Assembly (NCBI GenBank): GCA_029555025.1
Contig: JAKPTZ010000095.1
Coordinates: forward strand, 1-64,000
Direction of reading: 5' to 3'
Source of the DNA: Deltaproteobacteria bacterium
GTDB taxonomy: Bacteria; Myxococcota_A; UBA9042; DTJE01
DNA length: 64,000 nt
The stretch's first letter is position 1; each line of letters begins with the position of its first letter. The translations under genes were made by a program, and so were the position numbers. Shown here piece after piece: positions 20,824 through 54,675 of the stretch. The notes under the pieces are model-generated. The model saw nothing but the letters and a program-made list of their open reading frames with translations. It searched no databases and was not told the DNA's origin.

Positions 20824-21618
20824 TCATTCCGGACTTTTCATCGGCACAACGAAAAGCCTTCCGTTAAGTTCGTTCCTTCCGACGTAGAAATCGCACCGAA
20901 AAACGTCCTTCAGCGCCTGGTACCGCATCACTTCCTCGGGTGTCCCGAAGCCGACCACGGCACCCTGGTTGAGCAGCATCACCCTGTCACACACCAGAAG
21001 GGCAAGGTTCAGGTCGTGCATGGCCGCGACTATGCTGACTCCGTCCCGCCTGGCCATCGAAGCAAGTCCGTCAAGCATCCTGACGGCCTGCGACGCGTCA
21101 AGGTTGGCTGCCGGCTCGTCCAGCAGCAGCAGCCTGGATTCCTGGGCAAGGGCCCTGGCTATCAGAACCCTCCTCTGTTCGCCGGCGGAAAGTTCGGTGT
21201 AACGGCGGTCGGCAAACTGGGCCACGCCCGAGAACTCCATGGCCGAAGCGACCGATTCGCGATCGCGGGCCGATTCAAAGACACCTTCCAGGTGACAGGT
21301 GCGGCCAAGGGATACAAGTTCCCTTACGGTCAGCGGAAACCCGACATGAAGCGCGGCGGGGAGGAAAGCTGCAAGCCGGGCGGCCCGCCTTCTGGAAACC
21401 CTGGACGGGTCAAGACCGAAGGAAAGCACACGTCCGGCGTCAGGCCTGATGAATCCCGCGGCAGTGCGGAGAATGGTCGATTTTCCGGCCCCGTTCGGCC
21501 CCAGGATGCCGACGAACTCGCCGGGCGCGAAGGTCGCGGAAATGTCCTTCAGGACTCTTTCGGCCGAACCTGGCCACGAAAAGGAAACGGAATCGAGATT
21601 CAGGGGAACCTGCGTCAC
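20824..21618 (-). CDS. btuD: ABC transporter ATP-binding protein, iron siderophore/cobalamin type (BtuD/FecE-like)
   Basis: Walker A 'GILGPNGAGKSTILRTAAG', signature 'TELSAGEQRRVLIARALAQESRLLLLDEPAANLD'; in a riboswitch-led operon. Confidence 0.9.
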   Translation of the reverse strand: MTQVPLNLDSVSFSWPGSAERVLKDISATFAPGEFVGILGPNGAGKSTILRTAAGFIRPDAGRVLSFGLDPSRVSRRRAARLAAFLPAALHVGFPLTVRELVSLGRTCHLEGVFESARDRESVASAMEFSGVAQFADRRYTELSAGEQRRVLIARALAQESRLLLLDEPAANLDASQAVRMLDGLASMARRDGVSIVAAMHDLNLALLVCDRVMLLNQGAVVGFGTPEEVMRYQALKDVFRCDFYVGRNELNGRLFVVPMKSPE

Positions 21619-22616
21619 CTTGCCCCCCTTCGAAGCAGCCAGACGAACACCGGCCCGCCGATTATCGCGGTCATCACGCCAACCGGCGCCTCGGTTTCAA
21701 ATACCGGGAAGAGCATCCTGGTGGCAACGTCGGCCAGGACCAGGAATGAGGCGCCGGTCAGGATCGATGCAGGTATCGCGAACCTGTGATCCGAACCGAC
21801 CAGGACTCGAACGCCGTGCGGCACTATCAGCCCGACGAAGCCGATCATCCCCGCGACCGAAACGGCCGAAGCAACGAGAAGCGAGCCCGCCACCAGGACA
21901 ATCCTGGTGGTTGAAGCGGTATCGACCCCGACCGACGCGGCGTCTTCCTCGCCGACCGAAAGCGCGTTCAGCGCCGGGGCCTGGCGGAACAGGATGATGG
22001 AACCGACGATGGTCATCCCCACGGACATGGACACAGCAACCGGGCCCCTGACGTCGGAAGACAGCGTGCCCATCAGCCACATCAGCATTTCCTGTGCCTT
22101 CTGGGCCCGGACCACGGACTTCATGAACATGATCACGGCAGACGCGAAAGTGTTGAAAATCACTCCGACAAGAAGCACTTCCCAGACGTTGACGCGCCCG
22201 CGGGAATCCCTTGAAAGCCACCAGGTTCCGGCAATGGCCAGAAGCCCGAACACGAATGCGAGGATCGAGACGCCGGCCTGACCGGCGACCGCGGCGACGG
22301 GAAGGATCATCGCCAGGGTGCCGCCGATCGCCGAGCCGCCGGCGACGCCGATCACGTACGGATCTGCCAGCGGATTCTTCAGGATGGCCTGAAAGGCCAG
22401 CCCGGCTGCGGCAAGCGAGGCGCCGACAGAGGCCCCGAGAATTGTTCGGGGCAGGCGTTCCCTCAGGAGTATGGCCTTGTCGGCGGCATCGTGACTGGTT
22501 CCCGACAGTATCCCGAATATGTCGATGCTGGATGCGCCGAAAAGGATCGAAAGAATCATCGAGCCAATCAGCAGGATCAGCATTGACGAAAGCATCAACG
22601 GCCTTGGAATCTTCAC
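21615..22616 (-). CDS. btuC: ABC transporter permease, FecCD/BtuC family
   Basis: 'RLPRTILGASVGASLAAAGLAFQAILKNPLADPYVIGVAGGSAIGGTLAMIL', 'VAGMIGFVGLIVPHGVRVLVGSDHR'. GTG start at 22616 overlaps the upstream stop (GTGA); the longer ORF start at 22835 lies inside the upstream gene. Confidence 0.9.
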   Translation of the reverse strand: MKIPRPLMLSSMLILLIGSMILSILFGASSIDIFGILSGTSHDAADKAILLRERLPRTILGASVGASLAAAGLAFQAILKNPLADPYVIGVAGGSAIGGTLAMILPVAAVAGQAGVSILAFVFGLLAIAGTWWLSRDSRGRVNVWEVLLVGVIFNTFASAVIMFMKSVVRAQKAQEMLMWLMGTLSSDVRGPVAVSMSVGMTIVGSIILFRQAPALNALSVGEEDAASVGVDTASTTRIVLVAGSLLVASAVSVAGMIGFVGLIVPHGVRVLVGSDHRFAIPASILTGASFLVLADVATRMLFPVFETEAPVGVMTAIIGGPVFVWLLRRGAR

Positions 22617-23473
22617 TTCCCGGCACCTCCGCGCAAGGCCGCCCTCACGGCATCGCCCAGCCGTGCAGCGGCCCCGAGGGCTCCTGGCGACGGCAGGAGT
22701 ATGGCGTCGTCGGGCATCCGCACCACCGATGCATTGACCCCGGCATCGGAAAGCAGGTCGGCGGAAGGTTCTCCACCGGCGATTCCGTCGATGATCACGT
22801 CGGGGGCCGCCCGGATGACCTGCTCGAGCGACCATGTGGGAAAACCGCCCCTGCTGGAAACAACCACGTTCTGAAGCCCCATGGCTTCAAGCAGTTCGCC
22901 CTGGAATGACAGATCGGAGGCCACCACCAGCGGCTTGGTTCCGACAACGAAAAGCACCCTGACCGGGTTCCCTGGCTGTCGCAGGCCTTTCAGATCCTCG
23001 TCAAATCGCGCCAGCAGCCGGCTTGCCTCGTTCTGCCTGCCGACGGCCGCACCGATATCCGCAATGCCGCGACGGACATCGTCAAGATTTTCAAAATCGA
23101 GCGGCAGCAACCGGGCACCGGCAGCCGAGCACAGATCGGCCAGACGCCCCTTCAGGACTGCGGGGGAACCTATTACCAGGGTTGGCCTCAAGGCAACCAC
23201 CGCCTCGGCCGACACGTCCAGAATGCCACCCACCCGAGGCAGATCCGCCAACGCCGCAGGCAGCCTGCAGTATCGCGTCGCACCCGCCAGATCCGAACCT
23301 GCGCCCAGATCCAGCAGTATGGACGTCGCGCTGGGAATCAACGATACAACCCTGGCCGTCGAGCTGGAAGGCGCGATTGAAGGCGGTGATGCCGGATCCT
23401 TCCCGCAGCCGGCGACGAACGCCATCGCCACGCACGCAATCACGACTGGACCGGGGCGTTGTCGGCGGTTCAT
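22613..23473 (-). CDS. btuF: Cobalamin/iron-complex ABC substrate-binding lipoprotein (BtuF-like)
   Basis: Lipobox 'VIACVAMAFVAGCGK'; 'RVVSLIPSATSILLDLGAGSDLAGATRYC', 'VGGILDVSAEAVVALRPTLVIG', 'GFPTWSLEQVIRAAPDVIIDG'. Confidence 0.88.
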   Translation of the reverse strand: MNRRQRPGPVVIACVAMAFVAGCGKDPASPPSIAPSSSTARVVSLIPSATSILLDLGAGSDLAGATRYCRLPAALADLPRVGGILDVSAEAVVALRPTLVIGSPAVLKGRLADLCSAAGARLLPLDFENLDDVRRGIADIGAAVGRQNEASRLLARFDEDLKGLRQPGNPVRVLFVVGTKPLVVASDLSFQGELLEAMGLQNVVVSSRGGFPTWSLEQVIRAAPDVIIDGIAGGEPSADLLSDAGVNASVVRMPDDAILLPSPGALGAAARLGDAVRAALRGGAGK

Positions 23474-24648
23474 TTTATCTCCAGGATGTCCGGATCATCC
23501 ATGCGAACCCTGACCACGGAAGAGGACTTCAGGCAGGTAAGCCAGATTTCGATTGAGTCCCCGACAATCCCGCCGTCAAGTTCCCACGGATTGCAGTTGA
23601 CCGGCAAGCCCGTCCTTCGCACAGGTTCATCCCCGGAAGGGTCGATGACTGCCAGGCTGTTGTCACCGGAGCACACGACGTGAAGCTTGCCGCCAATCAT
23701 CTTCATCCTGTTGGGAACGACCAGTCCGGCGGCCACTTCGGTCACCCCGCCCGCCGGCCCTGTCGCGGCATCGATGGACACAATCCGGCCGGCCATCCCA
23801 AGCAGAAGGAATATCCTGCCGCCGGCGTCATCAATCTCGACATCCAGGATTCCATCCAGCTGGCCTTCCATTCCGACACTGGCTGGAGCCCAGGGATCGT
23901 CCAGTACGCGACCGTCGATCCGGTCGATGAGCATGACCGTGTCCTGGTTGAACAAGGCTGCCACCATTGTGCCGGCCGGGCCGCGACCGATGGAGACCGT
24001 ATTCTGCCCGGAATCCGAAGAAATCATTATCGGATCCCCAGCCCCGCGAAGAAGCCGGCCTTCCCCGAGATCGGCAAGGAACAACGAGGCGGACGTGCCG
24101 CTTCCAAGCCATGCCCTGCCTTCATCAACCAGCATTCCGGATGGATACCCGACTATCGAACCTTCTGATGATGGGATCGGTATCAGAACACCTGGCTCAG
24201 ACGCGGAATCAATACCGTCCAGTTCAATCCCGGCGAGACCGCCCGATTCGGAAATCGTGACCAGGGAGGATACAGGATCGAACGTGGTTGATCCGGAACA
24301 TAGAACCCACAAGCGGCCACCGTATATGGCCATCTCCTGGGGATTTGGAAAAGGAACCGGAATACGGTTGACGACGCTGCCGGTCGATGAGTCGATAACC
24401 GTTATAAATCCGGCCTTGAAGACCAGGCTTGCCCCCTGGTACGCAAAATTTGCATTGGCAACAAAAACCCTGTCATTCCAAACAATTATACCTTCCGGAG
24501 ACGCCATATTAGTATCCGGGAGCGACAGCCCTGAATCGTCCGGCAACATGGATGAATCGGACGAACCGACGTTTCCATCGATGCACCCCGACAGGCCGAC
24601 GGCAACAAGAAGCCCTGCGGCGAAAAATCTGATGCAACCGAAAATCAT
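23470..24648 (-). CDS. YncE-like beta-propeller lipoprotein within the B12 uptake operon
   Basis: Lipobox 'MIFGCIRFFAAGLLVAVGLSGCIDG'; repeated propeller-blade motifs ('ITVIDSSTGSVVNRIPVPFPNPQEMAIYGGRLWVLCSG', 'MKMIGGKLHVVCSGDNSLAVIDPSGDEPV'). 4-bp overlaps with genes on both sides. Confidence 0.85.
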   Translation of the reverse strand: MIFGCIRFFAAGLLVAVGLSGCIDGNVGSSDSSMLPDDSGLSLPDTNMASPEGIIVWNDRVFVANANFAYQGASLVFKAGFITVIDSSTGSVVNRIPVPFPNPQEMAIYGGRLWVLCSGSTTFDPVSSLVTISESGGLAGIELDGIDSASEPGVLIPIPSSEGSIVGYPSGMLVDEGRAWLGSGTSASLFLADLGEGRLLRGAGDPIMISSDSGQNTVSIGRGPAGTMVAALFNQDTVMLIDRIDGRVLDDPWAPASVGMEGQLDGILDVEIDDAGGRIFLLLGMAGRIVSIDAATGPAGGVTEVAAGLVVPNRMKMIGGKLHVVCSGDNSLAVIDPSGDEPVRRTGLPVNCNPWELDGGIVGDSIEIWLTCLKSSSVVRVRMDDPDILEIK

Positions 24649-26558
24649 ATTTCAATCCTTACGGACGCGAAGGCCGAAAAACCCGGCAGCGGCTGCTGCA
24701 CGAAATCGATCGAATCCTTCTTGTCGGTGACATTGAGAAAATCAACGGCAATTACCACGAACGGCCGTGGCCGTATCTCCAGCCCCAGATCCAGCCTGAA
24801 GCGATCCTCCTCACGAACCGACTGGTACGTGTCCAGGAAGAAGCCGGACTGCCACGAAGGTGCCAGGAACAACCTGAACGGCCCCTTCCTGAATCCGGCA
24901 AGTCCCGAAAACACGTGTTCCGGACGGGCCGGCATCCGGGCACCGGTCGATTCGAGCCTGGAATAAAGCCAGGTGTAGTTGGCCGAAAGTTCAAGCCACT
25001 TCCATTCGACCCGGGCCGACGTCTCGACGCCGCGGAGCGTGGCGGATCCGGAATTTGCCGCCCTTATCACGAAGGCCGATTCCGGGGCGAACATGATCAT
25101 GTTGAATCCGTGGTTTTCGAAATATGACGCCTTGAAATTCCACCATTTGTCCCGGCCGACCTCGATTCCGATGTCCCATGTTATCGAGTCCTCCGGCTCA
25201 AGCTCCGGATTGCCCCGAACATATCCGGTGTCGAAGTACAGCTCTTCCAGCGTTGGAAGGCGGCACGACCGGCCGACATTCGCCGACAGCCGGACCAGCC
25301 TGTGCGGCTCATACCAGGCCCCAAGCCCCGGAACGGCAAGGAAACCTGCGCCGCCGGCGTACTCAAGCCTGACATCGACGCCGACACCCCAGTTGTCCGA
25401 AGGTGCCCCGCCCTGCAGACCCGCAACGGCGGCCACGTTCCCCCGCCCGGGCCGGTAATCCGCCTGACCTACCCTGCGAACCTGCCCGGAAACCCACCCC
25501 CCCTCGAGTCCGAGTCTTATCGCAAGCCTTGGGATCGGGGCTGAAAGCGTGAAGGCGGACGCGCCGAAACCGTTCGACATCAAGGCGGTGTCAACCGGGG
25601 GGCCGAACTGCGGCGCTTCGTCGGAATATTCGAAGATCAGGCTTCGAAACCAAATGCTCGCGTTCGATGATCCGCGAACACCGAACATCCGCGGGCCACG
25701 CCAAGAAAGGCCGGCAATCGCCCTGGTATCGACCTGTCCCGCCGTCTCCGACGGAAACTGTTCCAGGCCGGCGATCTGCCTGTGAGCCCTGAAGAACTCC
25801 ACCACGGCATCCAGGCGGTGGCCGGGGGCCGGCTCCGACTCGACCTTCGCCATTGCCTCGACGGCCGTTGACGCGTTGTGCGTCCTTTCACGCAGCCGGC
25901 CGTTCGAGTCGATGAACGCAAACCCGCCGCCGGAATGTGCGACGCCGGCTGAGGCCATCAAGCCGACCGGCACCCTGGATTCGAATAACCGGGCGTGCGC
26001 GGCCTTCATCCTGAACGTGCCGAATGAACCGGCCAGCACTGCCGCCCTGGTAAATCCGCTCGCGTCAAGAATCGATGGCGTCCCGACATCGACCGTTCCA
26101 CCGGTCGAATCGCTTCCACGAAGGGAGCCCTGGCCGCCACGGGTGGTGGATATCGAGTCCAGGGTTGCCAGCGTCATCGAATTCAGATCGGCACCGCCAA
26201 GGAAGGGCGAGTTGAGCGGGATTCCGTCCAGCGATACAAGCGTTGATCTTGGATCCGAACCTCGTATGCTGATCGACACGGCTTGCCCCGGGGCCCCGCT
26301 TTCCCTTGCAAGGACGGACGGCCCGGACATCGCGGCCGCGGCAGGCCCCCTGGGGGATTCGATTGCCGATCGGTCAACCACCACATCCGATGCGGCGCTG
26401 TCACGAACAGGGACCTTGTCCGGAACCGGGTCGGCGCTGACGTCGATTTCCGGCACTTCAACCAGTTCCGGCAGGCCTTCCGCGGCATACGCATGCCCCG
26501 AAAACAACAGCATTACAGTTGGGCCGACAAGAATGATCGGATGGCGTGGCGACTTCAC
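24645..26558 (-). CDS. btuB: TonB-dependent outer membrane receptor (BtuB-like)
   Basis: GTG start at 26558 with signal peptide 'VKSPRHPIILVGPTVMLLFSGHAYA'; plug 'VSISIRGSDPRSTLVSLDGIPLNSP', barrel 'RLPTLEELYFDTGYVRGNPELEPEDSITWDIGIEVG'; downstream of a cobalamin riboswitch. Confidence 0.9.
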   Translation of the reverse strand: MKSPRHPIILVGPTVMLLFSGHAYAAEGLPELVEVPEIDVSADPVPDKVPVRDSAASDVVVDRSAIESPRGPAAAAMSGPSVLARESGAPGQAVSISIRGSDPRSTLVSLDGIPLNSPFLGGADLNSMTLATLDSISTTRGGQGSLRGSDSTGGTVDVGTPSILDASGFTRAAVLAGSFGTFRMKAAHARLFESRVPVGLMASAGVAHSGGGFAFIDSNGRLRERTHNASTAVEAMAKVESEPAPGHRLDAVVEFFRAHRQIAGLEQFPSETAGQVDTRAIAGLSWRGPRMFGVRGSSNASIWFRSLIFEYSDEAPQFGPPVDTALMSNGFGASAFTLSAPIPRLAIRLGLEGGWVSGQVRRVGQADYRPGRGNVAAVAGLQGGAPSDNWGVGVDVRLEYAGGAGFLAVPGLGAWYEPHRLVRLSANVGRSCRLPTLEELYFDTGYVRGNPELEPEDSITWDIGIEVGRDKWWNFKASYFENHGFNMIMFAPESAFVIRAANSGSATLRGVETSARVEWKWLELSANYTWLYSRLESTGARMPARPEHVFSGLAGFRKGPFRLFLAPSWQSGFFLDTYQSVREEDRFRLDLGLEIRPRPFVVIAVDFLNVTDKKDSIDFVQQPLPGFSAFASVRIEI

Positions 26559-26583
26559 TCCCTGTCCTCGAGGAGTTCGGACA

Positions 26584-26785
26584 ACGGCCTTCCGGGCAGG
26601 TCTCCTGGCTTGGGGGGTTCGGCTGGCGCCTGGAGCCCTTCCGCCTTCCCGGCAAGCAGCCAGTGGCGAATGGAAGGGCCCCGGAAATTCCTCCCCCTTC
26701 ACAGTGGCGGGACCGCGCGGGATTCGCACCCGCTTCCCTCTCCGGGACGCTCTGCGTCCACCCGGAAAGAACGGCCTGAAGGTGT
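26584..26785 (-). ncRNA. Cobalamin (B12) riboswitch
   Basis: Minus strand holds 'GGGAAGCGGGTGCGAATCCCGCGCGGTCCCGCCACTGTGA' and B12 box 'AAGCCAGGAGACCTGCC', with possible P1 TTCCGGG/CCCGGAA, directly 5' of the BtuB-like gene. Confidence 0.95.
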
Positions 26786-41634: not shown

Positions 41635-42984
41635 ATGGCCGGTACCTTCGGTCAATCGAGACGGGCGGTTCGCGGAGCCCGGGTCAGAAGTGCGCTGGAC
41701 AGGCTCGAGGCGGGAAGGGGTGAAAATCCGCATCCGGCTGTTGCGGATCGCTTCCCGATGGTTATCGGGTCGGCCAGGGGCGCAAGGGTGAAGGACGCCG
41801 ACGGCAACAGGTACATCGACATGACGTCGTTCTTCGGCGTGGCCCTTGCCGGTCACAGGAACCCGGCCGTCATGTCCGCCGTCAGGGTGGCCCAGGGACA
41901 CCTGGTTTCGTCGATGGGCGACGTGCATCCCGACCCTGGCCGTGCCGGCCTCCTGCAACTGCTTGCGGGGATGATGCCGGCCGAAGGATACCGCGGCGTC
42001 CTTTCGCAGAACGGGGCTGACGCCGTCGAAACCGCACTGAAATTCGCGGCTGCCGCAACCGGCAGGCCCGGCATCGTATCTTTTGAAGGGGCTTACCACG
42101 GACTTTCCGCGGGGGCGCTTGAAGCGACATGGCGACCCTCCTTCAGGAAACCCTTCGAAGCCATGCTTTCCGGAAGGGCCGTTTTCGCGCCATGGCCGGA
42201 ACCGGATGGAAGCAATCTGGAACTGGTTCTTTCGACCGTCGAGAGGCTGGCATCTTCGCCGATCATCAACAGGTTCGGGGCGGACATCGGCCGGCCGGGC
42301 GCGCTGATAGTGGAACCGATCCAGGGCCGAGGAGGCGTCAGGGTACCACCGCCCTCTTTCCTGTCGCGACTGGCCTCGATCTGCGACCGGAACGGGATTG
42401 TTCTGATAACGGATGAAATCTATTGCGGGACTTGGCGGACGGGCACTTTCCTTGCCAGCGAACCTGAAGCTGTCGTTCCCGATATCGTTTGCCTTGGAAA
42501 GGCGCTTGGCGGGGGCTTTCCGATATCGGTCGCAATGATGCGCCCGGCAGTCGCGGACGCCGTCCTGCCCGACCACGGCGAGGCCGTCCACACGTCGACA
42601 TTCATGGGCTGGCCGGTTTCCTGCGCCGCGGCAATCGCGACCATCGCCGCGATCAAGCGGATGGAACCGCAGGAAGCGGCCACAAGGATCGAACGCGCCG
42701 TTACCGCCGCCGCCAGATCCTGGGCGGGGAAATTCGATTTCGTCCGGGGTGTCGCCGGGCGCGGCGCGATGATGGGAGTGTCGCTGGCCGGCACCAGGGG
42801 CATGAGCGCTTCCGAAGTGACACGGAAGGTTGTGTCGGAGGCTCTTTCAAGAGGTGTCCTGCTGCTTGCCGAGGGATCCGACTCCGACGTCCTGGCGCTG
42901 ATGCCGCCTCTGGTTATTGGCGACGATGATTTGGGAACGGCGTTGCGCATAATCGGCGATTCCCTGGCAAAGGTGGCCGAATGA
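41635..42984 (+). CDS. Class III PLP-dependent aminotransferase
   Basis: ATG at 41635; 'GARVKDADGNRYIDMTSFFGVALAGHRNP', 'GIVSFEGAYHGLSAGALEAT', 'IVLITDEIYCGTWRTG', PLP-Lys motif 'DIVCLGKALGGGFPISVAMM'. Confidence 0.92.
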   Translation: MAGTFGQSRRAVRGARVRSALDRLEAGRGENPHPAVADRFPMVIGSARGARVKDADGNRYIDMTSFFGVALAGHRNPAVMSAVRVAQGHLVSSMGDVHPDPGRAGLLQLLAGMMPAEGYRGVLSQNGADAVETALKFAAAATGRPGIVSFEGAYHGLSAGALEATWRPSFRKPFEAMLSGRAVFAPWPEPDGSNLELVLSTVERLASSPIINRFGADIGRPGALIVEPIQGRGGVRVPPPSFLSRLASICDRNGIVLITDEIYCGTWRTGTFLASEPEAVVPDIVCLGKALGGGFPISVAMMRPAVADAVLPDHGEAVHTSTFMGWPVSCAAAIATIAAIKRMEPQEAATRIERAVTAAARSWAGKFDFVRGVAGRGAMMGVSLAGTRGMSASEVTRKVVSEALSRGVLLLAEGSDSDVLALMPPLVIGDDDLGTALRIIGDSLAKVAE

Positions 42985-44045
42985 TTGATAAATCCCTGGT
43001 TGACGCGGTAATGACGATGATTGGCGATTCCGTCCGCGGCCATTCCGGAATCGACGACGAGGGCTTCGAATCCCTGGCCGTCGAGATTGCAGCCGCTCAG
43101 GGCCGCCTGCGACGAACTTCGCCGCTTTCCGCAAACCTTCGTGGACTGGACAAGATCGAGCCGCTTCCGGAGACGGCCTTCAAGATGATGACCGTGGCCC
43201 AGTTTCCGCCGTCCGAAGCGGTTGCTGAATTCAGAACCTCGGGCACGTCTTCAGAAAACCGTGGCCGCCTGCCCGTGCTCGACATGGAAATATACAAGGC
43301 ATCGGCACTGGCCGGCTTCGAACTGTTCTGCATGCACGACGACCCGCCGACACGTTTCATGAGCCTTATCCCGCCGGCCTCGGCAAGGCCCGACTCCTCG
43401 CTTTCATGGATGGCCACCTTCCTGGTCGAAAAATTCGACGATGGACTGGGGGGCTTCGTCGCCGGCACCCAGGGCCTGGATCCGGATGGCATGCTGTCCA
43501 TCCTTTCTCGATCCGTTTCGGACGGTAGTCGCGTTTTCCTGCTGGGCACATCGCTGGACTTCCTGTCGCTTTTCGAGTTCCTGGTGATGAACGCGACCCC
43601 GATCCCGCTTCCTGCCGGAAGCAGGCTGATGCACACGGGCGGGCCGAAGGCGTCGGGTCGCAGCATCACTCCGCGTCAGCTTGCCGCCGACGCCGGAAGG
43701 CTGCTGGGAATCGCCCCGCAGGACGTCATCGAGGAATTCGGAATGACCGAGTTGTTTTCACAGGCTTACGATTCGCCGCGAATCAGCGGTGTTCCGGGAA
43801 GACTGATCCCGGTTCCATGGATGAGGACAAGGGTTATTGATCCACGGACAATGAAGGACGTGCCCGACGGCGAACGCGGCCTGCTTGTCCACTACGACCT
43901 TGCCTGCTGCCACACATGCGTCGCAATCATGGCCGCCGACACCGCGACCAGATCCGGAAACGGATTCTGCGATATCCGCAGGGCCGCCGGTGCCGCGGCA
44001 AGGGGATGCTCCCGCAACGCGGCCCCCCGACCGGGAGGCGCGTGA
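42981..44045 (+). CDS. LuxE-like acyl-protein synthetase (adenylate-forming)
   Basis: 'FRTSGTSSENRGRLPVLDMEIYKASALAGFELFC', 'VIEEFGMTELFSQAYDSP', 'PVPWMRTRVIDPRTMKDVPDGERGLLVHYDLACCHTCVAIMAADTATRSGNGFCDIRRAAGAAARGCS'. Overlaps aminotransferase stop (ATGA). Confidence 0.87.
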   Translation: MIDKSLVDAVMTMIGDSVRGHSGIDDEGFESLAVEIAAAQGRLRRTSPLSANLRGLDKIEPLPETAFKMMTVAQFPPSEAVAEFRTSGTSSENRGRLPVLDMEIYKASALAGFELFCMHDDPPTRFMSLIPPASARPDSSLSWMATFLVEKFDDGLGGFVAGTQGLDPDGMLSILSRSVSDGSRVFLLGTSLDFLSLFEFLVMNATPIPLPAGSRLMHTGGPKASGRSITPRQLAADAGRLLGIAPQDVIEEFGMTELFSQAYDSPRISGVPGRLIPVPWMRTRVIDPRTMKDVPDGERGLLVHYDLACCHTCVAIMAADTATRSGNGFCDIRRAAGAAARGCSRNAAPRPGGA

Positions 44046-44098
44046 ACAGGAATCGGCAGACGGTGTATCATTCGTAACGGCAAGACACCGGTGACGCC

Positions 44099-45274
44099 AT
44101 GGAAATGAACGAAACCAGAAGCCTGCTTGTGACGATCAGGGATCGCTGGCTTGCCTCGGCAGGCCCGGATGGCCTGGTTCCCGGCCCGTTTCTTGACGCC
44201 CGTGACATTTCCGACCTTGCCGCCTCCACAGGATGGGCCGGAATGCACCTTGCAAGGGCCATCAGGCTGGCATTCGAACCGTTTGACGACGAAAGCATCG
44301 ACCGGCTGTTCGTTCCGACCAGGGCTCCAAGGTTTCGCGGCCGCACTCCGCACAGGGCCGATCTGCTTGCGATTCTTGCCGGCCGGATACCGGCCCTCGC
44401 CGCCAAAGTTCTGTTCCATGGCCTGGCCGGCGGAATGAGGGTGATCCTGAAGCCGTCGTCGGCCGAGACCGTATTTCCGGCACTGCTTGTGAATTCGATC
44501 ATGCTCCTGGAACGGGATGCCCCGGTTTCGGTGGCGCCTGGACGCGGGCCCGCGCTGGACGCGATGATCCGGTCGGCAACCGCTTGCGTCGCATACGGTT
44601 CGGACATGACCGTGGAAGCGATCGCTGCCGCCAGGCGCGGACGTCCGACATTCCCCGGAAGGCACATGGAATCGTTCGAAACGGTTTTTGCCGATGCCAT
44701 CGAATCGAATGACGAAGCAAGGGCCGTGGCGGAAAAGATCGCATTTGACACGGCGATTTATGATCAATCCGGGTGTCTGTCCCCAACCGTCGTGTTCGTT
44801 CAGGAAGGCGGCGGCGTCAGCGCAAGAGCGTTTGCGGGAATGCTCCTCGAAGCCCTGTCCGGATCCCAGCTGGCCATGGGTCCGATGGAAATCGACGACC
44901 TTGCGGCGGTCAGGATCTTCATTCAGGAGGCTGCAATCGGCCGGATCAAGGATCCGGTATTTTCACGTGAGGACGTGATTCCGCCGGCGGTGGTTCTTTG
45001 CGACCGGGTCAGGCCGTCGCCGGGACTGCGCACCCTGCAGGTTGTTCCGTTCGACTCGCCGGTGCCCGACCTTTCCCGTCACATGCCGGATCTGGCCGAT
45101 CGCATCCAGGGAATGGCCTGCGCCGGTTCCGACGGGGAAGTCGGATGGCTGCTGCGCAAGAATCCACGATTCAGGGCAAACCACATCTGCGCGCCGGGAG
45201 AATTGCAGAACCCTCCGGCCCTGTGGCGCGAAAACGGCATCGTGCTTGCCCACGAACTGCTTGGAATTCAGTAA
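44099..45274 (+). CDS. LuxC-like acyl-CoA/acyl-protein reductase
   Basis: 'LFHGLAGGMRVILKPSSAETVFPALLVNSI', catalytic-Cys-type motif 'AFDTAIYDQSGCLSPTVVFVQEGGG', 'MGPMEIDDLAAVRIFIQEA'. Confidence 0.87.
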   Translation: MEMNETRSLLVTIRDRWLASAGPDGLVPGPFLDARDISDLAASTGWAGMHLARAIRLAFEPFDDESIDRLFVPTRAPRFRGRTPHRADLLAILAGRIPALAAKVLFHGLAGGMRVILKPSSAETVFPALLVNSIMLLERDAPVSVAPGRGPALDAMIRSATACVAYGSDMTVEAIAAARRGRPTFPGRHMESFETVFADAIESNDEARAVAEKIAFDTAIYDQSGCLSPTVVFVQEGGGVSARAFAGMLLEALSGSQLAMGPMEIDDLAAVRIFIQEAAIGRIKDPVFSREDVIPPAVVLCDRVRPSPGLRTLQVVPFDSPVPDLSRHMPDLADRIQGMACAGSDGEVGWLLRKNPRFRANHICAPGELQNPPALWRENGIVLAHELLGIQ

Positions 45275-47948: not shown

Positions 47949-48938
47949 ATGGAACAGGACGTTCGCATACTGACAGAGATGGTTCGGAAGGAAAGCGCGT
48001 TCGTTGACAGGCTCACTGCCGAAGTCGGGCGCGTGATTGTCGGACAGAAGGAACTGATCGACCGCATTCTGATTGCCCTGCTGTGCCGCGGTCATGTCCT
48101 TATCGAAGGCGTGCCGGGACTGGCGAAGACGTTGACGGTCAAGACGGTCGCCGATGCGCTGGACGCCACATTTTCGCGCGTGCAGTTCACGCCGGACCTC
48201 CTGCCGGCGGATCTGACCGGCACCCAGATCTACAACCAGCAGACCGGAGCCTTCTCGGTCAAGAAGGGGCCGATTTTCGCGGGAATCGTGCTTGCGGACG
48301 AAATCAACCGTGCTCCGGCAAAAGTTCAGAGCGCGCTTCTGGAAGCGATGCAGGAACGGCAGGTCACCATCAGCGACAAAGCTTTCCCGCTGCCGGAACC
48401 ATTCCTGGTCCTTGCGACCCAGAACCCGATCGAGCAGGAAGGAACCTATCCCCTTCCCGAGGCACAGATCGATCGGTTCATGCTCATGGTCAGGGTGTCG
48501 TACCCGACGCGCGACGAGGAACTCCAGATCATGGATCGGATGGCCCTTTCGGTGCCGACGAAGGTTGACAAGGTCATTTCGCTTGACGACCTGCAGCGCG
48601 CAAGATCGATGATGTCGGAAATCTACATGGATCAGAAGGTCAAGCAGTACATCGTTGACCTTGTATTCGCGACACGGCGGCCGGACGAAGCCGGGATTCC
48701 GGATCTTGCCGACTACATCAGGTACGGGGCGTCGCCCAGGGCGACCATCGCGCTTTCCGAGGCGGCCAGGGCCCACGCGTTCCTGCGGCACCGGGGCTAC
48801 GTGATTCCCGAGGACGTGAAGTCCATCGGCCTGGACGTGCTTCGTCACAGACTGATTCCGTCGTACGAGGCCGAGGCGGAGAACATGACTGCCGAGGACA
48901 TCCTGAACAGGATCTTTGATTCGGTTCAGGTTCCGTAG
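47949..48938 (+). CDS. MoxR family AAA+ ATPase
   Basis: 'GRVIVGQKELIDRILIALLCRGHVLIEGVPGLAKTLTVKTVADAL', 'GPIFAGIVLADEINRAPAKVQSALLEAMQERQVTI', 'VLATQNPIEQEGTYPLPEAQIDRFML'. Confidence 0.97.
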   Translation: MEQDVRILTEMVRKESAFVDRLTAEVGRVIVGQKELIDRILIALLCRGHVLIEGVPGLAKTLTVKTVADALDATFSRVQFTPDLLPADLTGTQIYNQQTGAFSVKKGPIFAGIVLADEINRAPAKVQSALLEAMQERQVTISDKAFPLPEPFLVLATQNPIEQEGTYPLPEAQIDRFMLMVRVSYPTRDEELQIMDRMALSVPTKVDKVISLDDLQRARSMMSEIYMDQKVKQYIVDLVFATRRPDEAGIPDLADYIRYGASPRATIALSEAARAHAFLRHRGYVIPEDVKSIGLDVLRHRLIPSYEAEAENMTAEDILNRIFDSVQVP

Positions 48939-48949
48939 CACCAGGCGGA

Positions 48950-49888
48950 ATGAATATGAAGACGGAAGACACGGACAACGTCAAGTCACTGCTCGCCAGG
49001 GTTCGCAGGATCGAGATCACGGCCCAGAGGCTGGTCAACGAGCAGCTCTCGGGGCGGTACCACTCGGTCTTCAAGGGCCGCGGCATGAGTTTCGACGAGG
49101 TACGGCCGTACACTCCGGGCGACGAAGTCCGGCTGATCGACTGGAACGTGACCGCCCGCACGGGAGATGCGTTCATCAAACGTTTCGTCGAGGAGCGCGA
49201 ACTGACCGTCATTATCATGGCGGATGCGTCCCTTTCCATGAATTTCGGGCTGTCGAGCTGCTCTGTCACCCAGAGACAGAAGACGACTGAAATCCACGAC
49301 ACGAAAAGGGAACTTGCAGCCCAGATTGCGGCCGCGATCGTGCTTTCGGCCCAGATGAACAACGACCGGGTCGGTCTGATAACGTTCGGCGAAACCGTTA
49401 CCAACTTCATCCCGCCCGGCAAGGGCCGCCGTCACGCGCTCAGGGTCATCCGCGAAGTCCTTGCGATGGAGGCCGCCGGCAGCAGGACCGACCTGGCCGG
49501 CGCGCTTGCATATCTTGGAAGAATACTGAAACGGCGCACCGCCGTATTCATCCTTTCCGACTTCGAGGTTCCCGATTTCGAAAGGGAGCTTCGCGTGGCC
49601 GCCAGGCGCCACGACATCCACGGATTGATGGTGCGGGATCACTTCGAGGACAACCTTTTCGAAGGGGGCATCGTCACCCTGAGGGATCTGGAGACCGGTC
49701 TGGTCAGACCGTTCTTCACCGGGGCCGGATTCCTTCAAAGGTACCGGTCAAGCGTTCAGGCGGGCATCAGGGAGGCTTCCGGCCAGTTCCAGAAGATGAA
49801 GCTTCCGTTTTCGCGCTTTTCAACATCGGAGCCTTACGACCGGACGCTCTCCGGTCATTTTGCAAGGCTTAAGGGCAAGGCCCTGTAA
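48950..49888 (+). CDS. DUF58 domain protein
   Basis: 'LSGRYHSVFKGRGMSFDEVRPYTPGDEVRLIDWNVTARTGDAFIKRFVEERELTVIIMADASLSM'. Confidence 0.96.
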   Translation: MNMKTEDTDNVKSLLARVRRIEITAQRLVNEQLSGRYHSVFKGRGMSFDEVRPYTPGDEVRLIDWNVTARTGDAFIKRFVEERELTVIIMADASLSMNFGLSSCSVTQRQKTTEIHDTKRELAAQIAAAIVLSAQMNNDRVGLITFGETVTNFIPPGKGRRHALRVIREVLAMEAAGSRTDLAGALAYLGRILKRRTAVFILSDFEVPDFERELRVAARRHDIHGLMVRDHFEDNLFEGGIVTLRDLETGLVRPFFTGAGFLQRYRSSVQAGIREASGQFQKMKLPFSRFSTSEPYDRTLSGHFARLKGKAL

Positions 49889-49902
49889 CCGGGATTGCGG
49901 AT

Positions 49903-50964
49903 ATGAAAACTTCATTTCTGCCACTTCTTGCCGTGCTGCTGACCGTGTCCGCAGGCGCGCAGCGGGCGGTCGCCCAGACGGACGTCACGAACGAGGACGT
50001 TGTGGCCGGGGCTGGGGCCGAAGCCGATGCCCCGCCCGGAGGTCCGCGCGGCGGGGAAGCCTCCGTGACGGTAACGATGGATCCCACGAACGAGCCGGTT
50101 CAGATCGGCAGGCCGTTTCATGTGGAAATCCGCTTCGGATACCCCGTCGGCACCAGAATCTATTTCCCTGACGCGCCGGACACGAAGCCCCTGACCCTTG
50201 TTTCAGTGAAGTCGGAAGATCGCACGGTACTCGGAACCTCGACCTCGGAAAGCCACAAACTTATCCTGCTTGCGATCAAGACGGGTGAGGCGATCCTGAA
50301 GCCGTTCGAGGTTCCGGTGGTGCTCCCCGACGGTCACGCGGCATCGGTCATGACTCCGGAACTTCGCATCAACGTATCCGGTTCGCTTGGCAACGAGGAG
50401 GCCCCCGAACTGGCACCGCCAGGTGAAACGCGCCCGGTGATCGTGCGCAACGACCTGCTGATATGGATTCTGGTCGCTCTGGCGGCCGCGGCCGTGGCTT
50501 CACTGACGGCTATAATGGTTTATCGCAGATGGCGCGCCTGGGCAGACGCCCACAGACCGCCGCCCCCGCCAGTGCCGCCCCATGAACGCGCAAGGGCCAG
50601 GCTTGCCGAAATCGAGGCAATGGGACTGGTCGAACAACGCGACTTCAAGACCCTGGCACTGCTGGTATCCGAGGTCATCCGCGAATTCCTTGGTGCCGTG
50701 CTCCGCTTCCCGGGAACCGATTCCACGACCTGGGAGACGCTTGAGTCGGTGCGGCGTGCCTCCGGCGGGAACGCGGTTGGAAAGATGAGCCTGATGGAAC
50801 TCGAGGACTTCCTGGCCCTGTGCGACCTCATCAAGTTCGCGAAGTTCGAGCCGTCGGTCGGGGACGCACAGGCCCTTGTCCGCAGAAGCCACGAACTGGT
50901 TGACATGGTCATGTGCGGGCCGACTGACCAGGCCGGCCGTGACGGTGACGGGGGTGCGTCATGA
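49903..50964 (+). CDS. BatD/DUF4381-like membrane protein in the aerotolerance cluster
   Basis: Signal peptide, beta-rich ectodomain, single TM 'LLIWILVALAAAAVASLTAIMVYRRW', cytoplasmic helical domain; between DUF58 and BatA genes. Confidence 0.75.
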   Translation: MKTSFLPLLAVLLTVSAGAQRAVAQTDVTNEDVVAGAGAEADAPPGGPRGGEASVTVTMDPTNEPVQIGRPFHVEIRFGYPVGTRIYFPDAPDTKPLTLVSVKSEDRTVLGTSTSESHKLILLAIKTGEAILKPFEVPVVLPDGHAASVMTPELRINVSGSLGNEEAPELAPPGETRPVIVRNDLLIWILVALAAAAVASLTAIMVYRRWRAWADAHRPPPPPVPPHERARARLAEIEAMGLVEQRDFKTLALLVSEVIREFLGAVLRFPGTDSTTWETLESVRRASGGNAVGKMSLMELEDFLALCDLIKFAKFEPSVGDAQALVRRSHELVDMVMCGPTDQAGRDGDGGAS

Positions 50965-52067
50965 GATTCGAATCCCCGTGGATGTTCCTTCTTCTGGTTC
51001 CAGTGGCCGGAATGGTCGCTTTCGGACTGTACTCGCTGCTTCGGAAACCGGCGCACCTGGACATTCCGACCGTGCGGCACGCGACGGCCGCCGGATCCGG
51101 ATTCCGCGGACGGATGGCCCACCTTCCGGCCGTTCTGACCGGAATCGCGGCAGTTCTGGCGGTCGTGGCGCTCGCAAGGCCCCAGGTACAGGATCACGAG
51201 GAACTGGTCGGAGAAGGCGCCGATTTCGTCATCGCACTCGACATGTCGGCATCGATGAACGCCGTCGATATGCCGGCCGAAGACATCCTTTCCAACCAGG
51301 CGGCCGGGCATGAACCACCGAACAGGTTCGAGTCCGCGAGACAGATTCTGAAAAAATTCATCTCGTCCAGAGACATGGATCGTGTCGGCCTGGTCATTTT
51401 CGCCTCGAAGGCCTACGTGAAGTTTCCACTGACACTGGACAGGGACGCGATGACCAGGATCCTTGACGGGCTGGTTCTTGACGACCGGATGCGCAGCCAG
51501 GATGGAAACTGCGTCAACGGATGCACGATAACCGGCGAGCAGACGGCCATCGGCGACGCCCTGGCCCGGGCTTTCAAGAGAATCGAGGACTCGAAGACGA
51601 AAAGCCGCAACATCATCCTGATAACGGACGGTGACAACAACGCCGGGATGGCCGCCCCGACTGAAATCGCGGATTTCATCGCGCGCGAGTCGGGCGCGAA
51701 CCCGGTTCGGGTATTCACGTTCCTGGTCGGTGGCGGCAAGGACACATGGATGCCGGCTTTCAACGGTTTTTCCGGCGATCTCCTGAAAGCCGGCAACGGC
51801 ATGCAGGTCTATGAGCCTGTCAAGGATCAGGCGCCCGTGAAGCCGGATCTGCTGCGTGAAATCGCCGAAAAGACTGGCGGACGTTTCTTTGCCGCTCCTT
51901 CGGAAAGCGACTTCCGCAAGGAATTTTCCGACCTGGAAAAGACGGAATTTTCGGCCCCCGCGCTGCAGGCATTCAGGGAAGCGTACGCGTGGCCGCTGGC
52001 TGCTGCGCTTGTGCTTTACGTGGCCGGACTGGCGCTCGGAACGACCATCTGGCGCCGCTGGCCGTGA
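50961..52067 (+). CDS. batA: BatA-like von Willebrand factor A protein
   Basis: 'VVALARPQVQDHEELVGEGADFVIALDMSASMNAVDM' (MIDAS DxSxS), 'IILITDGDNNAGMAAP'; two TM. Confidence 0.92.
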   Translation: MRFESPWMFLLLVPVAGMVAFGLYSLLRKPAHLDIPTVRHATAAGSGFRGRMAHLPAVLTGIAAVLAVVALARPQVQDHEELVGEGADFVIALDMSASMNAVDMPAEDILSNQAAGHEPPNRFESARQILKKFISSRDMDRVGLVIFASKAYVKFPLTLDRDAMTRILDGLVLDDRMRSQDGNCVNGCTITGEQTAIGDALARAFKRIEDSKTKSRNIILITDGDNNAGMAAPTEIADFIARESGANPVRVFTFLVGGGKDTWMPAFNGFSGDLLKAGNGMQVYEPVKDQAPVKPDLLREIAEKTGGRFFAAPSESDFRKEFSDLEKTEFSAPALQAFREAYAWPLAAALVLYVAGLALGTTIWRRWP

Positions 52068-52077
52068 CGGCAGGAGA

Positions 52078-54675
52078 ATGGAAGTGTTCCAGTTTGAATC
52101 AATCAGATGGGGTAACCCGGATCTGTGGTGGCTGCTCCTGCTGCCAGCCATGCTGGTTCCCGCGTGGGTCTGGCAGGAGCTTTCGTTCAGGAAGATTCTC
52201 GGTTCCTTCCCGGGCACCAGGCTCGTCCCGTCAATGGTTCACGGTTCCGGAACCGGCAGGCGCCTGGCGACATTCCTTTGCGCCGTCGTCGCCCTTGAAC
52301 TGCTTGGCGTCGCGGCCATGAGGCCCCGATACGGATTGAAGGACTACGCGGTCAAGGGGATCGGTGTCGATGTAGCAATCGTTCTCGATGCCAGCCGATC
52401 CATGAAGGTCTCCGACGTCGCCCCGGACAGGCTCGGCAAGTCGATCATCGAAATTTCCAGACTCCTGCGTGCTTCCGGCGGCAACCGTGTCGCCCTTGTC
52501 CCGTTCGCCGGAATTTCGTTCATCCAGAGCCCGCTTACGGTGGATCACGAGGTGATACGGCAGTACCTGAACGATCTGCGCGTTACGGACATCCCCGTCC
52601 CGGGAACCGCGCTGGGAAGGGCCCTTAACACCGCCGGCAGGGCGCTTGGCATCGATCAGGCAGGCTTCAGGGGATCGGCGCACAAGGCCATCGTCGTGTT
52701 CACCGACGGCGAGAACCACGAAGGTGAACCGGCTGAAGTGGCAAGGAACCTGGCGCAGAAAGGCGTCCGAATCTTTACCGTCGGTGTCGGTACACCGGAA
52801 GGCAAGCCAATCCCGCGCCTGAACGACAAGGGTGTCGTGACAGGGTTGACCCGGGCCGACGACGGGGTTTCCCCGGTTCTTTCAAAACTTGACGAGGCGC
52901 TGCTGAAGGAAGTTGCCGAGGTGACAGGGGGAAAGTACTTCCAGCTTTCCGGTCTGGCCGCCGGCGCAAGCGTTTCCGAACAGCTCATGAAGGAGATCGA
53001 TTCGCTTCAGAAGGCCGAGTACATGTCGGCGGTCGAACGACTGCTGGAGGACAGGTTCCAATACCCCCTCGCGGCCGCCATCGTGTTCATGCTGCTGCCG
53101 TTCCTCTGGGCCGGCGTCCGACGAAGGCCCGGCCCTGCCCGCGTCGGCGCGGCGGGTGCCGCCATGATGGTGGCGGTGCTGGCGCTGTCGATGCCCGCCA
53201 GTGCGGAACCTTTCGAACACCCGATTCTTGCCAGACTGTTCAACACCAGCCACGGAGGCGTTGACGACGCCACGGAACTGATTCAGGAAAACAGGCACTC
53301 CGAGGCCCTGACGCTTCTTAAGGAACTGGCCACCAGAATCCCGCCGTCGCCGGCGCTTGACCTTGACCTGGCGCTTGCCGCATTCGGATCCGGCGACTTC
53401 GGCGCGGCCGTGGAGTACGCCGAAGGCGCCATCAGGAAGAACGATGCCCTGCCCGAGGGTTCCCCGATCAGGCTCAGTCCCGCTTCGCTTCATCATGCGA
53501 AGGGAACCATGCTGGCAGCCAGAGCCCGCGCAATGTCCGTCGAAAAGAAGCCGCCGCGGGAAGTCCGAAAGGTTTACAGGCAGGCGGTCGATTCCCTTGT
53601 GGCCGCCCTGCTGCTCGATCCGGAAAACCCGGCCACCAGGCGCAACCTTGAAATAGTGGCGACGGCGGCGTACCCACCCTGCTCCAGCCTGGACGATGCA
53701 AGGGAACCCAACAACACCCGCGCTGACGCCGCCTTCCTGACCCCGGATCCGAGTACCCTGGAGGCCGCCGAGACTCTGCTCCTGTGCCCGGCCGACACCG
53801 ACTGGTTCAAACTTCCAGTCAACCAGGGGGAAACCCTTTTCGTTTCGGTTCAGAAGCCGCCCGAGGCCGCCGCGGCGCCAGGTGGAGATCCGTCTGCCCC
53901 GGCGCAACAGCAGAAACCGGAACCGGCCGACGTCGATCTGTCCCTTGAAGGAGATGACGGCACCCTGATTGCTGATGGGGTCAAACAGGCAAGGTGGACC
54001 GCGCCGGACGACGCGGGCTCGACCATGCTGATGAAGGTGACCGGCCCGCAGGTTGAGGACGGTGTCGATTACTTCCTGTCGGCCAGGATCGTTCCACCTT
54101 GTCCGTCCGGGGACGACCAGATGGAACCGAACGATTCCAGGGAAGCAACGAAGGCCATCCAGGAAGGCGAGATGGCCCTTCGCTCCTGTCCTCTCAACGA
54201 CGACTGGTTCCAGTTTGTCGAGCAACAGGGACAGGCAAAGGAGGTTCGTCTGACATCGTCAAACTCCGACGATCCGGTCGATCTTCAGGTATTCAGCGCG
54301 GACGGGGCCTCGATGGACGTCAGGACAGACATCGGGCCGGATGGAACGGTGCGATCCGTCCTTCTTCCAAAGGCGGAGCAGGAGGCCCCGTTCACGATCC
54401 TGGTTTCATCCGGCGCCGGACAGGCCTTCTATACCCTTTCAATCCAGGATCCTGAAGGCGGACAGAACGATCGGCAGAATGACGACCAGCAGAATAACGA
54501 GCAGAAGCCCGATGAACAGGAAGGGAAGGATCGGCAGCAGGAACAAAAATCACAGGGATCGCGTACAATGCGCGAGCTCATTGACGCGATTGACAGCAAC
54601 GACCGGAACCTCGAGGCCCAGGAGGCCGCAAGGAACAACCCGATGGGCGACTCGAGTCCGGACAAGGACTGGTAA
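52078..54675 (+). CDS. batB: BatB-like VWA protein fused to TPR (BatC-like) and PPC-like domains
   Basis: 'GIGVDVAIVLDASRSMKVSDVAPDRLGKS', 'HKAIVVFTDGENHEGEP'; TPR-like middle; two 'EPNNTR.../EPNDSR... DTDWFKLPVNQGE.../NDDWFQFVEQQGQ' PPC-like modules; Gln/Asn-rich tail. Start at ATG 52078. Confidence 0.87.
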   Translation: MEVFQFESIRWGNPDLWWLLLLPAMLVPAWVWQELSFRKILGSFPGTRLVPSMVHGSGTGRRLATFLCAVVALELLGVAAMRPRYGLKDYAVKGIGVDVAIVLDASRSMKVSDVAPDRLGKSIIEISRLLRASGGNRVALVPFAGISFIQSPLTVDHEVIRQYLNDLRVTDIPVPGTALGRALNTAGRALGIDQAGFRGSAHKAIVVFTDGENHEGEPAEVARNLAQKGVRIFTVGVGTPEGKPIPRLNDKGVVTGLTRADDGVSPVLSKLDEALLKEVAEVTGGKYFQLSGLAAGASVSEQLMKEIDSLQKAEYMSAVERLLEDRFQYPLAAAIVFMLLPFLWAGVRRRPGPARVGAAGAAMMVAVLALSMPASAEPFEHPILARLFNTSHGGVDDATELIQENRHSEALTLLKELATRIPPSPALDLDLALAAFGSGDFGAAVEYAEGAIRKNDALPEGSPIRLSPASLHHAKGTMLAARARAMSVEKKPPREVRKVYRQAVDSLVAALLLDPENPATRRNLEIVATAAYPPCSSLDDAREPNNTRADAAFLTPDPSTLEAAETLLLCPADTDWFKLPVNQGETLFVSVQKPPEAAAAPGGDPSAPAQQQKPEPADVDLSLEGDDGTLIADGVKQARWTAPDDAGSTMLMKVTGPQVEDGVDYFLSARIVPPCPSGDDQMEPNDSREATKAIQEGEMALRSCPLNDDWFQFVEQQGQAKEVRLTSSNSDDPVDLQVFSADGASMDVRTDIGPDGTVRSVLLPKAEQEAPFTILVSSGAGQAFYTLSIQDPEGGQNDRQNDDQQNNEQKPDEQEGKDRQQEQKSQGSRTMRELIDAIDSNDRNLEAQEAARNNPMGDSSPDKDW

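Follow-up and report, generated by a model that had tools for sequence, protein, structure and literature searches.

We propose that three adjacent genes in a 64,000-nucleotide window from a Deltaproteobacteria bacterium of the Myxococcota_A (assembly GCA_029555025.1, contig JAKPTZ010000095.1, positions 1 to 64,000; hereafter the window) probably form a stand-alone module that would make a primary amine from a carboxylic acid, the likeliest candidate being a fatty acid of medium or long chain length. The products are a class III aminotransferase (AT), an acyl-protein synthetase of the LuxE type and an acyl reductase of the LuxC type; on the plus strand, the order is tolB, AT, LuxE, LuxC:

41635-42984, plus strand: class III aminotransferase (AT), 449 residues, assigned by PF00202
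42981-44045, plus strand: LuxE-type acyl-protein synthetase, 354 residues, assigned by PF04443 and the profile of its relatives
44099-45274, plus strand: LuxC-type acyl reductase of the aldehyde dehydrogenase kind, 391 residues, assigned by PF05893
40061-41608, plus strand: TolB-like PD40 protein upstream of AT, start uncertain

The stop codon of AT overlaps the start codon of LuxE in the sequence ATGA, and 53 bp separate LuxE from LuxC. The initial annotation, made from the letters of this stretch, had placed the three open reading frames (ORFs) in one run behind tolB and had quoted the motifs CLGKALGGG from AT and YDQSGCLSP from LuxC; Pfam models and the profiles of relatives bear out the run, and both motifs are found in the sequence. 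Promoter and terminator patterns at the locus showed no excess over shuffled sequences. The source genome (3.49 Mb) encodes a single LuxC and a single LuxE.

The neighborhood of AT, LuxE and LuxC recurs far beyond chance, and the trio is probably a conserved functional unit. Among 377 Myxococcota genomes, LuxE is present in 303 (profile E ≤ 1e-20) and this type of AT in 230 (profile E ≤ 1e-130). Both occur in 225 genomes, AT only in 5, LuxE only in 78 and neither in 69, which gives an odds ratio of about 40 (Fisher p 8e-28), a figure that is overstated because related genomes are not independent. Of the 114 genomes with both AT and LuxE among the matches listed, 108 have AT immediately upstream of LuxE, always on the same strand, the gap having a median of 20 bp. 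The remaining six, together with the other members of family f19 that were examined, keep AT and LuxE-LuxC at separate places; in L137, L142, L144 and L146 (families f19 and f48), AT is hundreds of kb from LuxE-LuxC or on another contig, and all the genes are retained. A LuxC profile found a match in all 20 genomes searched, strong in 19, most of these genomes having been picked because LuxC was unlinked to LuxE or had been missed by a single query. No gene is linked to LuxE more tightly than AT, which in some families surpasses even LuxC in this respect. Among the named carriers that have genomes are Minicystis rosea DSM 24000 and Polyangium sp. 15x6, and L055, labeled Oligoflexales at NCBI, is probably mislabeled and was not counted as another phylum. 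That most Myxococcota carry the trio suggests that it has a basic function and does not make a rare secondary product.

The AT itself belongs firmly to its family (PF00202, 273.7 bits, cut-off 30.5), and its catalytic lysine, Lys289, which binds pyridoxal phosphate (PLP), is invariant in 49 of 49 relatives. The 33 typical ATs group together in the phylogenetic tree as a single clade (support 100/100), whose signature consists of GDV around residue 95, EPxxGRGG (227) and V[L/I]xxxPP (419). When AT is aligned with the γ-aminobutyric acid (GABA) aminotransferase of Escherichia coli, the last two of these motifs fall on Glu211 and Arg398, which recognize glutamate or 2-oxoglutarate, and the two positions are occupied by Arg232 and Ala421. 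The replacement of Glu211 by arginine and of Arg398 by a neutral residue holds across the clade, with arginine at the position of Arg232 in 47 of 49 ATs; BioA likewise lacks Arg398 in the alignment. With this pair missing, AT is not expected to recognize its donor in the textbook manner, and the sequence predicts an unusual mode of amino-donor recognition in which Arg232 perhaps takes over the binding of the carboxylate.

It is very improbable that AT is a housekeeping enzyme such as BioA, ArgD, HemL or GABA aminotransferase that merely adjoins LuxE. Such an identity would fit the AlphaFold model of AT (mean predicted local distance difference test, pLDDT, 87), the nearest solved folds to which are GABA aminotransferases (template modeling score about 0.83–0.86, about 30% identity), and the source genome yielded just two further class III ATs, neither of them shown to be BioA. 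These are a distant one on contig 62 and one on contig 49 that we call ArgD-like on its length and motifs. Nevertheless, the score of AT is no more than 54% of the cut-off for any of the curated aminotransferase equivalogs (GABA aminotransferase, ArgD and BioA, among the matches listed), and its clade is separate from BioA, GabT and PatA of E. coli, from PuuE, from an amino-acid racemase and from the genome's own ArgD-like enzyme. On these scores and this tree we rejected BioA, ArgD and GABA aminotransferase as identities of AT. The GRGG signature, present in 47 of 49 ATs, also argues against a housekeeping enzyme, as does L110, where a BioA-like gene that groups with E. coli BioA is present besides the AT of the trio. 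Furthermore, when the AT profile was run against eight named genomes, seven held one gene of at least 571 bits, the next paralogue reaching 353 bits at most; the eighth, a Binataceae genome, has no high-scoring AT, in agreement with the tree.

The LuxE sequence matches PF04443 at 24.9 bits, exactly at the cut-off, but its assignment is firm because the profile of its relatives finds as its best solved match the LuxE chain 7xc6_E (3.4e-35). Two motifs of adenylate-forming enzymes, TSGT and GMTEL, are conserved in the relatives and appear here as TSGTS (residue 86) and FGMTEL (residue 253). The putative acyl acceptor, Cys343 in RGCS, aligns with the GCS cysteine of 7xc6_E and is invariant in 46 of 46 relatives. 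LuxC is well above the cut-off of PF05893 (66 bits against 21), and the profile of its relatives finds 7xc6_A, the partner of 7xc6_E, as its best solved match (4.3e-30). Its predicted catalytic residue, Cys226 in YDQSGCLSP, is invariant in 40 of 40 relatives. The structure 7xc6 is a solved long-chain fatty acid reductase, and apart from its chains LuxE and LuxC have no strong sequence match; for this reason a fatty acid is the likeliest predicted substrate. The model of LuxE (mean pLDDT 88), on the other hand, shows an adenylating fold of a general kind; among the solved structures nearest to it are PaaK, ClxA, 2-hydroxyisobutyryl-CoA ligase and other ligases of small or aryl acids.

This resemblance raises the alternative that the acid activated by LuxE is a short, dicarboxylic, amino or aryl one and that the product is a small amine or an amino acid, much as the aminoadipate route leads to lysine. 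Class III ATs act mostly on small terminal amines, which would agree with such a product, as would the trio's position behind glutamate synthase genes in Omnitrophota. Yet the strong matches of both proteins are confined to chains of the long-chain reductase, and there is no amino acid pathway gene among the conserved neighbors. We consider a small product distinctly improbable.

Under the proposed conversion of a carboxylic acid into an amine, LuxE would adenylate the acid with adenosine triphosphate (ATP) and load the acyl group onto Cys343. The acyl group would then pass to Cys226 of LuxC and be reduced with NAD(P)H to the aldehyde, which AT, with PLP on Lys289, would aminate to the primary amine. 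We base the first two steps on family membership, on the conserved catalytic residues and on what is established for the LuxC/LuxE reductase, and the third on the family of AT, its operon linkage and its co-retention.

The initial annotation had suggested this order of acid, aldehyde and amine, with a carboxylic or fatty acid as the starting point, and had looked to conserved co-occurrence, to any luciferase elsewhere in the genome and to the grouping of AT with known pathway enzymes. All three of these points speak for the suggestion. AT-bearing Myxococcota genomes almost all have LuxE (225 of 230); no member of the luciferase family PF00296 (LuxA/LuxB) that could use the aldehyde was matched in the whole 3.49 Mb genome, the same search being positive in 10 of 14 control genomes; and AT falls apart in the tree from BioA, GabT, PuuE, PatA and the ArgD-like enzyme. 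Support does not extend to a fatty acid as the substrate, LuxE having the general adenylating fold described above. The LuxD family had no match in the source genome, although it matched no control genome either.

The closest known logic, assembled from different parts, is that of TamA and TamH in the biosynthesis of tambjamine YP1 by Pseudoalteromonas tunicata, which together convert a C12 acid to dodecylamine in one pot with L-glutamate as donor (PMC9594044). The likeness lies in ATP-driven activation of a fatty acid, reduction of a thioester to the aldehyde and amination by a class III transaminase (PMC9594044), steps that in the trio are inferred. TamA, however, is a fusion of an adenylation domain and an acyl carrier protein (ACP), and TamH joins a transaminase to an AAR-like thioester reductase, whereas the trio consists of three separate proteins, of which LuxE and LuxC would take the first two steps. 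TamH uses L-glutamate, whereas the AT of the trio lacks the usual glutamate-binding pair, and the Tam genes constitute a rare secondary-metabolite cluster, whereas the trio is spread over a phylum. The fatty acid reductase of bioluminescence shares both families, LuxC and LuxE, and the same catalytic cysteines with the trio. It differs in that the trio's genome has no LuxA/LuxB, an aminotransferase standing in the place of the luciferase, and the LuxE described here is far under the cut-off of the equivalog for LuxE of luminous bacteria (NF052244; 25.1 bits, cut-off 550). GABA aminotransferase (GabT/PuuE) offers the nearest solved fold and the same PLP lysine, but AT belongs to a separate clade in which Glu211 and Arg398 are replaced. 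No description of an AT-LuxE-LuxC unit was found in text searches of the open-access literature. The mel2 locus of mycobacteria, which has a LuxC-like gene and no clear LuxE, was set aside (PMC1793995).

LuxE and LuxC also occur in other company. Pairs that lack an adjoining AT are found in L060, L065, L082, L084, L093, L114, L116 and others, including members of Gemmatimonadota, Bacillota and Pseudomonadota and Mycobacterium szulgai. LuxE and LuxC are likewise known without luciferase from the flagellin glycosylation islands of Aeromonas and Enterobacteriaceae (PMC7874193, PMC4875605), where they accompany genes for ACP, a FabG-type 3-oxoacyl-ACP reductase and an AMP ligase amid glycosyltransferases, and where no AT-LuxE-LuxC unit is described. 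In Myxococcus, fatty aldehyde depends on ElbD and is tied to ether lipids (PMC9131029). It could therefore be argued that LuxE and LuxC supply an aldehyde for another use, such as ether lipids, a fatty alcohol or a signal, and that AT acts on a different substrate and is linked for regulation only; the AT-less pairs of many phyla and of the flagellin islands favor this view, as does the use of fatty aldehyde or alcohol, made there by ElbD, in myxobacterial ether lipid synthesis (PMC9131029). We regard it as unlikely, though by no means negligible, given that AT is the tightest partner of LuxE, in some families ahead of LuxC, and that a second class III AT has been joined to LuxE-LuxC separately.

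This second case is seen at L056:1951-5491 and L086:2112-5728, in a Binataceae genome and one labeled Deltaproteobacteria, where LuxE-LuxC is followed by a different class III AT. These ATs retain the usual Glu211 and Arg398 and branch apart from the clade of the trio, and the arrangement is a putative, independent-looking second cassette for the conversion of acid to amine. That a class III AT has been paired twice, separately, with a LuxE-LuxC reductase points to the amination of an aldehyde. The order LuxE-LuxC-AT with the same AT type as in the trio also occurs, in one Eremiobacterota genome and two unclassified metagenome-assembled genomes (L072, L077, L129).

Against the conversion of an acid into an amine by the trio stand the following points. 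The match of the single LuxE sequence to PF04443 is weak, at 24.9 bits only level with the cut-off, and the fold of LuxE fits ligases of small and aryl acids as well. LuxE-LuxC can serve other ends, AT-less pairs being common in other phyla, and 78 Myxococcota genomes have LuxE but no AT above the strict threshold. In addition, the LuxE tree is incompletely congruent with the AT tree, and AT is without the Glu/Arg pair usual for the binding of glutamate.

The genes around the trio differ by lineage, as far as can be judged from neighbor lists that are approximate because the gene caller misses some trio genes. In the family of the source genome, tolQ-tolR-tonB-tolB lies near the trio, whereas in other lineages the trio stands beside HPPK (folK), PAPS reductase (cysH) or the SUF operon. 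The SUF iron-sulfur operon recurs downstream in several Myxococcota; considered as a pathway partner, it was taken as unrelated. In several genomes of family f19, a gene for a NUDIX hydrolase adjoins the unlinked AT. The trio in Omnitrophota (L058 and L085, the contig of L058 ending before any LuxC is seen) lies directly downstream of genes for the large subunit of glutamate synthase, a GltD-like (thioredoxin-reductase-like) flavoprotein and a ferredoxin, which may hint at the donor of the amino group or of electrons. No conserved extra pathway genes were found beside the trio across the neighborhoods compared. Since the neighbors differ by lineage, the module looks self-contained, with its product used by genes elsewhere.

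The gene tolB does not belong to the conserved module, even though in the source genome it is probably transcribed together with AT, the ATG of which follows the end of tolB (41608) by 26 bp and is preceded by GGAGG. From this spacing the initial annotation had derived an envelope aminolipid as a possible product, an argument that proves weak, as tol genes are nearby only within the same family. That the trio belongs functionally with the tol-pal genes and makes such a lipid is improbable: the 26 bp spacing speaks for it, as do the tol genes that several members of the family carry a few kb or less from the trio, whereas outside the family the neighbors are unrelated to tol, and within it other genes intervene between TolB and AT in L037, L038 and L040.

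Two other regions of the window were noted. At 47949-54675 on the plus strand, genes for vWA-type proteins and a TPR-like protein come after that for a MoxR AAA ATPase, resembling a Bat aerotolerance cluster; a MoxR-vWA run also adjoins the AT-LuxE pair in family f3 (L139, L140), perhaps by chance. On the minus strand, a cobalamin riboswitch (26578-26780; Rfam, 104.9 bits) precedes a TonB-dependent-receptor-like ORF (24645-26729), and further minus-strand ORFs resemble, by eye, a BtuF-type binding protein (22613-23473) and a BtuC-type permease (21615-22835). Together (21615-26780) they look, by eye, like an ordinary B12 uptake operon.

Returning to the trio as a module for the synthesis of a primary amine, we tentatively raise the possibility that most Myxococcota make overlooked long-chain primary amines, or lipids derived from them, as a core trait, by means of a dedicated LuxE-LuxC-AT system with a transaminase altered at its donor site. 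Should the module do what is inferred here, the majority of a phylum famed for its unusual lipids and natural products would be making an amine that nobody has sought. Acid reductases of the luminescence type would then gain a second, widespread job, and a three-gene route from acid to amine would become available for biocatalysis.

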